Positions 19,683-24,036 of a DNA stretch of 64,000 nt are shown one piece after another (positions within the stretch are counted from its first letter, which is position 1; every line of letters begins with the position of its first letter). Made by a program: the position numbers and the translations under genes. Source of the DNA: Nocardiopsis alba DSM 43377 (GTDB taxonomy: Bacteria; Actinomycetota; Actinomycetes; Streptosporangiales; Streptosporangiaceae); contig NZ_ANAC01000012.1 in assembly GCF_000341225.1 (NCBI RefSeq), positions 62,001-126,000 of the forward strand, given 5' to 3'. The notes under the pieces were generated by a model. The model was given only the letters and a program-made list of their open reading frames with translations, ran no database searches and was not told the origin of the DNA.

Positions 19683-20180
19683 ATGGAACGACACAACCCC
19701 GGACGGCGGCGGACGGCCGACCACCTCTACGCCTCGGCGCTCTCCCTGGCCAGGACGGGCGAGACCTTCGACCGCCTACGTGGACTCCAAGGCGTGGAGG
19801 GGGAGGCGCTCCTCCTGGTCTTGGAGGCGTCCAGGGCCGACGGGCGGAGCGGGGTCACGGAACCGGAACCGATCACCCCGGGACGGCTGGGGCGGGAGCT
19901 GCGGCTGCCCTCGGCCTCGGTGACGGCCGTCGTCGACCGGCTGGAGCGGGGCGGTCACCTCCGTCGGGTGCGGGACACCGGAGACCGTAGAAAGGTGCTC
20001 CTGCTCCCGACCGAGGAGGCCGAACGCGCTCATACGACCTACTGGGGCGGCCTCGACGAGCGGATCGTCGAGGTCATGGAGCGGTTCTCCCCGGAGGAGT
20101 TGTCCATCGTCGACCGTTTCCTGCGAGGGGCGACCGCCGTGACGGAGGGGTACCGGGCCGAGCGCGAGGAACACCCTTGA
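19683..20180 (+). CDS. MarR family transcriptional regulator
   Basis: The 165-residue protein has a central winged helix-turn-helix (ITPGRLGRELRLPSASVTAV, then VVDRLERGGHLRR and the wing RDTGDRRKVLL) and terminal dimerisation helices. The ATG at 19683 lies close to the predicted transcription start, so the mRNA is nearly leaderless. It is divergent from the frameshifted glycoside hydrolase-like gene with a palindrome between, so it probably controls that gene and itself. Confidence 0.9.
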   Translation: MERHNPGRRRTADHLYASALSLARTGETFDRLRGLQGVEGEALLLVLEASRADGRSGVTEPEPITPGRLGRELRLPSASVTAVVDRLERGGHLRRVRDTGDRRKVLLLPTEEAERAHTTYWGGLDERIVEVMERFSPEELSIVDRFLRGATAVTEGYRAEREEHP

Positions 20181-20243
20181 GGAAGAGGCCTTCCGAGTAG
20201 GACCGGGGTGGTGGAGCACACGTGAGGGGCGCGGAAAAACCCC

Positions 20244-20273
20244 TTGGGCGGGATGACGGTCCCGCGTTAACCT
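20244..20273 (+). promoter_or_regulatory. Promoter of the ABC-F leader
   Basis: TTGGGC (20244-20249) and TAACCT (20268-20273) are 18 bp apart. The predicted start point coincides with the ATG of the leader peptide at 20280. An A-tract (GGAAAAACCCC) lies directly upstream of the -35 box, as in WhiB7-type promoters; WhiB7 control is speculative. Confidence 0.55.
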
Positions 20274-20279
20274 GTGGGC

Positions 20280-20303
20280 ATGCATTTCCAGCTCTATCTG
20301 TAA
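20280..20303 (+). CDS. Seven-codon leader peptide of the ABC-F gene
   Basis: A tiny ORF encodes MHFQLYL and a TAA stop, 145 bp upstream of the ABC-F start codon and apparently leaderless. Short leader ORFs whose translation is stalled by ribosome-targeting antibiotics precede many actinomycete resistance genes, including ABC-F and erm genes. Position, size and downstream hairpins all fit such a sensor. Translation has not been shown here. Confidence 0.65.
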   Translation: MHFQLYL

Positions 20304-20343
20304 CGGCACCGCCGGCCCACCGCGCTCGTCGAGTCATCCGAGT

Positions 20344-20431
20344 CCGGTGACGGCCCAGGCGACCCCGCCCCATCGAGGGCGCCGTTACCGGCACGCCCAC
20401 CACCCCGCCACGCGGGTGTCCTCGGCGTGCC
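20344..20431 (+). terminator. Attenuator-like overlapping hairpins before the ABC-F gene
   Basis: Hairpin 1 pairs 20344-20354 with 20381-20391 (11 bp with one G-U). Hairpin 2 pairs GGCACGCC at 20390-20397 with GGCGTGCC at 20424-20431, with a further CCCGC/GCGGG stem inside. The two share bases 20390-20391, so they compete at their junction. Hairpin 2 ends 16 bases before the start codon. A CACCG segment just after the leader ORF could also pair with the left arm of hairpin 1. Confidence 0.55.
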
Positions 20432-20447
20432 CTCAGAGAGGGAACAC

Positions 20448-22088
20448 ATGCCCACCGCTCTTCCCGCGCGTTCGCGCGCCCAACTCGTCCTGTCCGGGGT
20501 CTCCGTCACCCGGGGCTCCCGACGGGTCCTCTTCGACACCGACCTGACCGTCACCCCCGCCTCCCGCATCGCGATCGTGGGGGAGAACGGTCGGGGCAAG
20601 TCCACGCTCCTGCACGTCATGGCCGGAACGCTCGTGCCCGACGAGGGCACCGTCACCCTGGTCGGCACGCTCGGCCTGGCCGAACAGGAGATGTCCACCG
20701 AGGACGAGCGCACCGTCGGCCGGGTCGTCGCGGACGCCGTCGCCGACTCCCTGGCGGCGCTCGCCGAACTCGACGCCGCAGGCCTCGCCCTCGGAGCGGG
20801 CGAGCCCGGGGCCGACGAACGCTACACCCGCGCACTGGAACGGGCCGAGGCGCTGGAGGCCTGGGACGCCGAACGCAGGATCCAGGTCGCCTTGGAGGCG
20901 CTCGGGGCCGAACCCGACCACTCGCGACGGCTGACGGAACTGTCCGTCGGACAGCGCTACCGGGTCGGGCTGGCCTGCCTGCTGGGGTCGGAGGACGACT
21001 TCCTGCTGTTGGACGAGCCCACCAACCACCTGGACCGCGCGGGTCTGGACTTCCTCACCGAACGGCTGCGCGGACGCTCCGGAGGGGTGGTCGTGGTCAG
21101 CCACGACCGCGCCCTGCTCTCGGACGTGGCCCGCACCGTGGTGGACCTGGACCCGACCGACGACGACCGTCCCCGGGTCCACGGCGGCGGTTACGCCGGC
21201 TACCGTCGGGGCCACCGGGCCGAAAGGGAACGCTGGGAACAGGAGTACCTGCGTCAAGAAGCCGAACGGTCCCGGCTCCAAGACCTGCTCAGCGCCGCCC
21301 AGAACCGCCTGGTCTCCGGGTGGCGTCCGGAGAAGGGGACGAGCAAGCATCAGCGCGCCACCCGTGCCGGGGGAGTGGTGGCCAACGTCCACCGCCGCCG
21401 GGCCGACCTGGAGGCCCACGCCGTCACGATGCCCGAACCACCGCGGCCGTTCCGCTTCCCGGACCTGCCCACCCGGTCGGGCACCACGCTGCTGGTCGCC
21501 GAGGAGGTGACCGTGGCCGGCCGTCTGGACGCACCGACCTCGCTCACCCTGCGCGGCGGATCGAGGCTGGTGGTCACCGGCCCCAACGGCGCGGGCAAGT
21601 CGACGCTGCTGTCGGTGCTCGCGGGCGACCTGCAACCCTCGAACGGCCGGGTGTACGGATCGTCCGAGGCCCGGGTCGTGGCGCTGCGTCAGGAATCGGC
21701 GCCCTCGTCCGAACAGCGGGCCGGAGACCTCTATCGGGCCCACGTGGACCGGCTCGTGTCCCGGGGGAGGCTGCGCCCGGACGAGGTCGTGGGCCTGGCC
21801 TCGCTGGGGCTGCTGCGTCCCCGGGAGATCGGCAAGAGGGTCGAGGAGCTCTCCACCGGACAGCGGCGCCGCCTGGACCTGGCGCTGGTGCTGGCCTCGC
21901 GCCCGCACGTGCTGCTGTTGGACGAGCCCACCAACCACCTGTCGATCGCGCTGGTCGACGAGATGACCGAGGCCCTGGAGGCGACCGAGGCGGCGGTCGT
22001 GGTCTCCACCCACGATCGGGGGCTGTTGCGGGACGTCGAATCCTGGCCGCACCTGTCCCTGGAGGCCGCGCGGAAGATCACGGTGTGA
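20448..22088 (+). CDS. ABC-F ribosomal protection ATPase (antibiotic-resistance type)
   Basis: The 546-residue protein has two ABC domains and no membrane segments: Walker [10 protein letters not shown], signature [11 protein letters not shown] and Walker [12 protein letters not shown] in the first; [20 protein letters not shown] and [11 protein letters not shown] in the second. A charged helical linker lies between them at about residues 240-330. ABC-F proteins of this class remove macrolides, lincosamides, streptogramins or pleuromutilins from the ribosome. The ATG at 20448 has GAGAGGGA upstream, which I prefer to the in-frame GTG at 20427 inside the hairpin. Its leader peptide and attenuator suggest drug-induced expression. 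Drug range unknown. Confidence 0.92.
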
Positions 22089-22221: not shown

Positions 22222-24036
22222 GTGACCCTGCGGATCGAACGGCACGAGGTCGACGACAAGGCGATCGCGAAGGCCACGGAGGACTTCACGGATCGGATCG
22301 GCGGTGACGTCCGTGCGCAACAGCACAGCGGTCGGGAAGGGTTCGGTTGGAGGATGATCGCCCACGACCTACGGGACTACGCGGCGGCGCGTTCGGTCCG
22401 GGCTCCTTCCGCCACGGCCGACATCCGGGCCGCCCTGTACTCGGCGGCCGAGGCGCGCGCGGGCTCGATCACCCTGGACGGGGCGCCCGGCTCGGCGGAG
22501 TTCTCGGTGGACCTGACCTACACCCGCACCGGTGTCTTCTACCAGGACTTCGACGGGGACCATGGCTCCGAGCCCCGAGGAGCGCGGCCGGTCCGGGCCG
22601 GCGACTGGACCGAGGCGCTCTACCTGTGCGTCCTCGCCGGCCTGCACGAGAACCACGAGAACCCCTTCGTCGGCTTCGCCTCGGACTTCGGAGAGGACGA
22701 GGTCCTACAGCGGGCGCTGACCTTCTACCTCTACCCGCACCTGGGCGCCGAGCGGGATCAGTTGGAGAAGTACGTGTGGTCCGCACTGGGACCGCTCCTG
22801 GACTCCCTCTCCCTGGACTCCGACGACGACCGTGTCGAGCCGGGGTCGATCGACCATGACCTGCTCTACCTGCGGGCCCTGCTCGCCCGTGACGAACTCG
22901 CGTTCTGGTCGACCATGTCCGTGCGTCTGACCTGGCTGCGTGACCACTCCGACGAACGGGACCTCAGGGGGCTGCTCCCGCTGACCGAACTCGCCTTCGC
23001 CGCCCTGGCGGTGCGGGTCGAGGGCTGGGACATGCCGTTCGAATCCGACTACCTGCCCCGCCACCTGGTCGAAGGGTTCGGGATCCGGCGTCGCCGGGTG
23101 GGCCCCTACGGAAAGGACAAGGACCCCGGGGCCCTGGCGGCGCTCTCGCGTGGGACGTTGACGGTCGAACGTCCCACGGAGGGGTTCTCGACAGAGCGGT
23201 CGTTCGAGAAGACGTTCCAATACGAGGACGAGAAGCTCCAGAGGATCCGGAGGCCGCAGATCCTTCGGGGACAGATCCCCCGCGCTCTGGAGTGGGCGAG
23301 CGACGGGGAGATCCTCGGGTTCCGCTTCTGTTCGGTCGTGGATCCGGAGGCACGGCATCCGCGTCAGCTCGCCGCCCTCGAACACGCCGCCCAGTACATG
23401 GTCGCGCTGTTCGACTGCGCGGCGGCCGAGGACGACACCGTCGACGTGACCATCGGCGAGACGACCGCGCCGATGCGTACCTTCGAGCCGAACTCCCGTG
23501 TCACGGGAGGACGGTTGCGGACCTCCCTTCAGTACGCTCTGATGTCCGGTTCGCGAGAGCTCTTGGAGAGGCTGCGCGCGCACATCGGGGCCGAGTACCT
23601 GCGCGGGGGCGATGGTCCTTCCGTCTACTCCCACTACAGGGAGGCGTTCCTGGCCTATCTGGGCTCCGAGGTGGATCGACTCCGGTGGCCCGAGGAGGAC
23701 GTGCCTCCGAATCCGAGGGTCGAGGAGGCGCTGGATCGGGCGCTCGAAGCGCTCACCGCCTATGACGTGCCCGGTCACCCGCCGCCCCCGGTCATCCTGC
23801 TCTCCCAGCTGGTGGCGCAGGATCGGGACGGGTTCGACCTGGCCCTGGTCGACGTGTTGGAGGAGCACCGGGACGCTCATGGCATCGGCGAGCGGGCCGA
23901 GGACCCCGACGGCCTGATCGACCTCGACGCCCTGGCCCTGGCCTGTCTGGCCCGGGCCAAGGGGTGGTCGGTACGGGTGCGGAGCGACTACCTGCCCCAG
24001 GGGGTCCTCGACCGGGCCGCGACCATGTTCGCCTGA
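22222..24036 (+). CDS. Immunity 49 family protein with two Imm49-like halves
   Basis: The 604-residue soluble protein contains two related halves of about 280 residues. Matching segments include FAALAVRVEGWDMPFESDYLP near residues 260-280 and LACLARAKGWSVRVRSDYLP near 572-591, and each is preceded by a helical ALLARDELAFW / LVAQDRDGFDL segment. This fits Imm49, an immunity family predicted to neutralise nuclease-type polymorphic toxins; single-domain members are about half this length. The GTG start has GGGGAGAGG upstream. No toxin gene is adjacent. It converges with an Imm5-like gene with a four-base gap. Confidence 0.75.
   Translation: MTLRIERHEVDDKAIAKATEDFTDRIGGDVRAQQHSGREGFGWRMIAHDLRDYAAARSVRAPSATADIRAALYSAAEARAGSITLDGAPGSAEFSVDLTYTRTGVFYQDFDGDHGSEPRGARPVRAGDWTEALYLCVLAGLHENHENPFVGFASDFGEDEVLQRALTFYLYPHLGAERDQLEKYVWSALGPLLDSLSLDSDDDRVEPGSIDHDLLYLRALLARDELAFWSTMSVRLTWLRDHSDERDLRGLLPLTELAFAALAVRVEGWDMPFESDYLPRHLVEGFGIRRRRVGPYGKDKDPGALAALSRGTLTVERPTEGFSTERSFEKTFQYEDEKLQRIRRPQILRGQIPRALEWASDGEILGFRFCSVVDPEARHPRQLAALEHAAQYMVALFDCAAAEDDTVDVTIGETTAPMRTFEPNSRVTGGRLRTSLQYALMSGSRELLERLRAHIGAEYLRGGDGPSVYSHYREAFLAYLGSEVDRLRWPEEDVPPNPRVEEALDRALEALTAYDVPGHPPPPVILLSQLVAQDRDGFDLALVDVLEEHRDAHGIGERAEDPDGLIDLDALALACLARAKGWSVRVRSDYLPQGVLDRAATMFA

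Follow-up and report, generated by a model that had tools for sequence, protein, structure and literature searches.

The ABC-F gene in the stretch of DNA analysed here (the window, 64 kb of the 5.8 Mb high-GC actinobacterial genome G000) is preceded by a leader that is probably a translational attenuator. The RNA of a very short upstream open reading frame (uORF) would itself act as the anti-Shine-Dalgarno (anti-SD) sequence, and a ribosome stalled on it by a drug would uncover the Shine-Dalgarno (SD) sequence of the ABC-F gene. Computed support comes from a conserved leaderless uORF, the amino-acid constraint on it, a covarying uORF:SD pairing, and the lack of a U-tract terminator. Beyond these results, we infer that stalling depends on a drug, which class of drug it is, where the ribosome stalls, and that the switch works in the window too.

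The leader and its gene

The leader and the gene that follows it contain these features, all on the forward strand.

20235-20240, +, A-tract AAAAAC, a candidate box for WhiB7/WblC, separated from the -35 element by 3 bp; with the -35 it scores 8/10 against the consensus
20244-20249, +, -35-like element TTGGGC, with an 18-nt spacer to the -10
20268-20273, +, -10 element TAACCT; in 49/49 leaders, 6-7 nt separate a TANNNT box from the start of the uORF
20280-20303, +, leaderless uORF MHFQLYL-stop (ATG CAT TTC CAG CTC TAT CTG TAA), conserved in 48 orthologs, with an excess of synonymous codon changes
20286-20295, +, predicted anti-SD part of the uORF, TTCC (20286-20289) and CTCT (20292-20295), from the minimum free energy (MFE) pairs, a pairing probability of 0.67, and the clade consensus fold
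20300-20388, +, predicted branched hairpin P1, basal stem 20300-20307/20381-20388, from the MFE fold and the consensus fold of five close relatives
20390-20431, +, predicted hairpin P2 immediately ahead of the SD, with its stem at 20390-20397/20424-20431, from the MFE fold and from the consensus fold, in which changes of C-G to U-G keep the pairing
20435-20444, +, SD region AGAGAGGGAA, the predicted partner of the uORF, from the MFE fold, pairing probability, and consensus fold
20448-22088, +, resistance-type ABC-F ATPase gene (546 aa), with two ABC_tran domains and profile scores below the curated cut-offs

Exactly 6 nt separate TAACCT from the uORF ATG. Transcription starts 7-8 bp past the -10 element in S. 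coelicolor WblC promoters (PMC7157823), and by this spacing the RNA should begin with the ATG or right beside it. The seven-codon leaderless ORF that an earlier note on this DNA had placed before the ABC-F gene is confirmed at 20280-20303. The layout of uORF and spacer described there is also borne out, with a spacer of 144 nt up to the ABC-F ATG at 20448 rather than the 145 bp given. A strict pattern for a short leaderless ORF ending in Y/F-L-stop occurs once in the 64-kb window, whereas the mean count is 0.00 in 40 random sequences of 64 kb that match the window in dinucleotide composition. A scan with the sigma-70 consensus gave no match, nor did an Rfam search of the window. A gene for a MarR-family regulator (19683-20180) lies on the same strand and ends about 100 bp before the leader, and after the ABC-F gene, positions 22222-24036 encode a protein of 604 aa that carries an Imm49 immunity domain.

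The ABC-F protein scores 322.3 bits with NF000355 (cut-off 380) and 339.5 bits with NF000171, and at the cut-off of 800 for the latter it does not reach membership of the TlrC/CarA/OleB/SrmB group. An Actinomadura oligospora protein that follows a leaderless uORF VGSLIFL (L113) scores 878.7 bits, above the NF000171 cut-off.

Conservation of the uORF

ABC-F orthologs were taken from the genus and the family, and the 420 nt upstream of each were examined. A leaderless uORF of 6-8 codons is present in 48/48 grouped orthologs (53-85% identity over the aligned part). In the 49 grouped leaders, the window included, the uORF lies 6-7 nt after the TANNNT box and ends in Tyr/Phe-Leu-stop, an ending that was partly used as a criterion in choosing them. 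When this criterion was dropped, every ABC-F ortholog in the genus of the window still showed such a uORF. The relatives encode peptides such as MIQSVLYL, VHLPLYL, VQYLYFL, VHLYFL, and VPRLFFL.

Single-base codon differences between uORFs of equal length comprise 354 synonymous and 248 non-synonymous changes, against a neutral expectation of 158 synonymous, the uORF pairs compared not being independent. Judged from these comparisons, the uORF is under amino-acid constraint. Its start, frame, and stop are conserved along with the synonymous excess, as befits the translated leader ORF of a translational attenuator, although the Phe/Tyr-Leu codons behind an apparently conserved peptide are also constrained by the uORF:SD pairing. 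The choice among Leu codons is free in the first half of the uORF (CTA, CTT, CTG, TTG), whereas the last two codons are nearly invariant, which fits a second constraint at that end.

The richness of these uORFs in Leu, Phe, and Tyr codons could also suggest that they sense a shortage of these amino acids, or slow translation in general, instead of a drug. WblC attenuation does respond to amino-acid starvation as well (PMC12421871). However, the downstream genes encode ABC-F proteins and erythromycin esterase rather than amino-acid functions, and the free choice of Leu codons in the upstream part speaks against such sensing, which we consider quite improbable.

Predicted fold of the leader

The 169-nt leader of the window has an MFE of -81.6 kcal/mol, compared with -62.1 kcal/mol for shuffled sequences (z -4.86). 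In the predicted fold, a closing helix between the uORF and the SD encloses P1 and P2, and P1 begins at the last base of the final sense codon of the uORF. The earlier note had proposed two competing hairpins that share bases at their junction. The fold contradicts this, because P1 and P2 share no base and stand side by side, one nucleotide apart; a mutually exclusive P1/P2 pair was rejected, as both coexist. The switchable element could instead be the uORF:SD pairing, which lies outside both hairpins. It joins uORF positions 20286-20289 and 20292-20295 with positions 20435-20438 and 20441-20444 of the SD region, as TTCC/GGAA and CTCT/AGAG with a two-base interruption. In the leader of one relative (L031:3094-3227), the tips of P1 and P2 are gone but the stem bases, the uORF, and the SD are kept, which is what hairpins serving mainly as spacers would allow.

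Pairing and covariation between the uORF and the SD

The predicted folds of almost all leaders pair the ABC-F SD with the 3' half of the uORF (in L093, for example, CUUCCUCUGAGGG with CCCUCGGAGGAAG); in L055, L063, L067, and L019 the SD pairs elsewhere. The SD:uORF pairing probability averages 0.84 over the 49 leaders, compared with 0.60 after synonymous recoding, and exceeds the recoded mean in 43/49. Shuffling the bases of the uORF in 24 representatives lowers the pairing from 0.86 to 0.52. Duplexes of cognate uORF and SD average -15.5 kcal/mol, as opposed to -13.2 kcal/mol with permuted partners, and 0/20000 permutations reach the observed value; as the leaders are related, the permutation and shuffle counts given here are not independent.

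Covariation was assessed in a stop-codon-anchored alignment of 48 leaders from outside the clade of the window. A 14-pair helix in this alignment has 79.6% standard pairs, against 46-58% when slid, and a covariation score of 0.229, against 0.056-0.151 for the slid versions. Pairs 5-48 (UA/AU) and 6-47 (CG/GC) swap on both sides in seven sequences each, and 53 helix cells are changed on both sides, compared with 29 in shuffles.

The register of the pairing differs in the clade of the window, where a five-sequence consensus fold joins uORF columns 13-21 with SD columns 165-173. The relatives in this clade have a strong uORF:SD helix, whereas that of the window is weaker. Its pairing probability (0.67) is no better than that of a shuffled uORF (0.67), and just 5% of synonymous uORF recodings reach the real value. 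Because the helix of the window is weak, the claim for the window rests on its family. In the modelled folds, the SD of the family would be sequestered in a structure that a stalled ribosome could open, and this sequestration is weak in the window taken by itself. The equality of real and shuffled pairing in the window is what one would cite for a chance ORF whose pairing is a by-product of GC-rich folding. That reading is scarcely credible, since the uORF persists in many genera, where synonymous substitution and covariation are seen, and the random expectation of the pattern is near zero.

Translational attenuation or transcription termination

The earlier note assigned the leader to ribosome-mediated attenuation, in which the stalled ribosome prevents premature transcription termination. 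A regulatory leaderless leader peptide before the ABC-F gene is supported by our analysis, but relief of premature termination is not. A scan of 20100-20500 found no terminator-like site, and a T-run of at least 5 between uORF and SD is present in just 1/55 leaders. The conserved, covarying interaction instead joins the uORF to the ABC-F SD, which points to translational attenuation.

Transcription attenuation, with the stalled ribosome blocking a terminator (P2 or a P1/P2 alternative), is nevertheless usual for the ABC-F genes vmlR, msrD, lmrC, and cplR (PMC12421871, PMC10201436), including lmrC of an actinomycete (PMC8546547). P1 starts at the end of the uORF, and a stalled ribosome would disturb it. 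Yet neither hairpin of the window is followed by a U-tract, P2, which coexists with P1, stops a few nucleotides short of the SD, and the helix that covaries is the one between uORF and SD. Such a mechanism, possible only through a terminator that lacks a U-tract, appears unlikely.

A candidate WhiB7/WblC promoter element

The WblC promoter consensus is GAAAWY-N3-TKGMNN-N16-19-TANNNT (box and -35 part from PMC7157823). The promoter of the window matches it at 8/10 positions (AAAAAC CCC TTGG, spacer 18; shuffle P 0.010). It shares with WhiB7/WblC-dependent promoters an A-rich box 3 bp before the -35, the 18-nt spacer, and TANNNT, and differs from them by two mismatches; about half of the related leaders have no box. 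The genome also encodes a WhiB7 ortholog (L261), a WhiB protein with the C-terminal AT-hook RKRPRGRPRK, and the remark in the earlier note that the A-tract near the -35 recalls WhiB7 promoters was a reasonable one. A WblC-like box with P up to 0.01 is found in 21 of the 49 leaders and is perfect in 7.

These matches and the ortholog would be in keeping with regulation by WhiB7/WblC at the level of transcription alone, in which case the uORF and the pairing would do no more than hold basal translation low. However, about half of the leaders are without a recognisable WblC box and yet retain the uORF and the uORF:SD pairing. What the family has in common is not the box, and exclusively transcriptional control is very improbable.

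Distribution among resistance genes

A scan of 297 genomes of the order used just the uORF pattern and specified no gene. Of 28 matches, 21 lie before ABC-F genes, 2 before erythromycin esterase (Ere) genes, and 1 before an ABC-F gene that appears decayed when its translation is read by eye (24/28). At L051, near position 1500, an intact leaderless uORF MQHLLFL and an SD precede an apparently gutted ABC-F gene of which only the ends are recognisable. The same pattern in 395 genomes of the class gave 28 matches, 18 of them upstream of ABC-F or Ere genes, and all high-GC Streptomyces-like matches are at ABC-F genes. The other 10 (L214, L216-L222, L232, L223) are not upstream of resistance genes, come mostly from small low-GC genomes, and were taken as chance; reversed-pattern controls likewise match small low-GC genomes. 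In a scan of named genomes, distant ABC-F genes predominate among the matches listed.

Paralogs of the TlrC/CarA/OleB/SrmB type were newly met in these scans, with uORFs MRFFFFL, MGSYYFFL, and MMGSFHFFL in a genus with large genomes, probably Streptomyces. The genus of the window has a TlrC-type paralog of its own with the uORF MRLYFFL. Two TlrC-type paralogs score about 600 bits with NF000171 from partial sequences. The TlrC-like L053 has the same uORF:SD design, pairing TCCTGTTCC with GGAACAGGA.

The Ere genes downstream of the pattern match PF05139. Leaderless xxxGSLFL-stop uORFs precede one subgroup of them (L054, L057, L229, L251). In L229, the predicted uORF:SD pairing is between CTTGTTTCTCTG and CAGAGAAACGAG, and the helices of L229 and L251 are 11-13 bp long. 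Most Ere genes are without this uORF: among 20 further Ere upstream regions, it was found only in L251.

Leaderless uORFs of other kinds occur in sister ABC-F groups (52-58% identity). In L082, L084, L085, and L089-L091, a uORF of about 14 codons, MARGIWSQK(V/I)RSAR-stop, is followed by CGGCG/CGCCG and CCGGGCGG/CTGCCCGG repeats, and these leaders look like a different, classic multi-hairpin attenuator. Leaderless uORFs with Arg-rich tails (such as VYTGTAFMRPRLRA-stop and MNFCMPSRRLRPVL-stop) precede the ABC-F genes of L095, L098-L101, L096, L097, and L105.

Proposed mechanism

In the proposed translational attenuator, the 3' half of the uORF would have two roles, coding for the last part of a short hydrophobic peptide and acting as the anti-SD for the ABC-F gene about 150 nt downstream. 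When no drug is present, ribosomes would quickly clear the seven-codon uORF, and its RNA would close on the SD after each round of translation. P1 and P2 would then be spacers inside the junction, and ABC-F translation would be low. In the presence of a drug, most likely a macrolide, the ribosome would be arrested within the uORF, probably on the stop codon or close to it. The arrested ribosome would cover the anti-SD and free the SD, and ABC-F would be made. In some members of the family, the window included, induction of transcription by WhiB7/WblC probably comes on top of this.

By analogy, macrolides would be the likeliest inducer, because the downstream genes are macrolide-type ABC-F and Ere genes and the peptides resemble MsrDL when counted from the stop codon. 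Lincosamides, streptogramin A, or pleuromutilins may also be the signal, since a stall at the start codon covers part of the uORF too.

Comparison with known attenuators

A ribosome stalled on the leader ORF of cat-86 frees a sequestered SD. The same release takes place in ermC (PMC10219788). The leaders described here would share this principle with the two Firmicutes systems but differ in design: the uORF has no SD of its own and starts at the 5' end of the mRNA, the anti-SD is contained in the codons of the uORF and would bridge about 90-350 nt, including intervening hairpins, to pair with the SD, and the genes are actinobacterial ABC-F or Ere genes.

In Streptococcus, MsrDL (MYLIFM) with erythromycin blocks release factors at its stop codon (PMC10314930). 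It is six codons long up to its stop and controls a macrolide ABC-F gene. Counted from the stop, its ...YLIFM resembles ...YLYFL and HLYFL of the relatives VQYLYFL and VHLYFL, a resemblance of motif with no homology shown, and MHFQLYL of the window is less similar. msrDL has a ribosome-binding site and a Rho-independent terminator, whereas the leaders here are leaderless and predicted to sequester the SD.

The ABC-F genes cplR and vmlR are under both transcriptional and translational attenuation (PMC10201436, PMC9226507), but these Firmicutes genes have very short uORFs (MRI, MIN) and polyU terminators. Among actinomycetes, the ABC-F genes lmrC, are5sc, and tiaA of Streptomyces also have ribosome-mediated attenuation; their uORFs differ (MLV, MVGDDDISG), they are described with ribosome-binding sites and terminators, and their ARE5 proteins respond to lincosamides, streptogramin A, and pleuromutilins.

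SD-sequestering translational attenuation (ermC, cat-86) and uORF-controlled ABC-F genes, mostly with terminators, are thus already known. An incomplete literature search found no description of a leaderless uORF whose own codons serve as the anti-SD, of such a design shared by ABC-F and Ere genes, or of tlrC joined with a leader peptide and attenuation; priority is not claimed. The prokaryotic tool uORF4u looks for an SD before the uORF (PMC10219788), and tools of this kind would tend to miss the leaderless class because its uORF has no SD.

Significance

It is an even question, in our judgement, whether these leaders form a widespread class of leaderless actinobacterial drug sensors in which one set of codons both encodes an arrest peptide and forms the anti-SD, with MsrDL-like peptides, common to two ABC-F groups and Ere, which are unrelated macrolide-resistance genes. 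If so, the class would be a compact sensor that combines peptide and RNA switch in one segment, and drug-dependent stalling would extend to leaderless mRNAs, whose initiation differs. The question would also arise whether the YL[I/Y/F]F[M/L]-stop arrest motif evolved more than once. A leaderless uORF ending in Y/F-L-stop, together with uORF:SD complementarity, is suggested as a search for uncharacterised resistance genes, and inducible macrolide resistance would become predictable from sequence in actinobacteria, antibiotic producers included.
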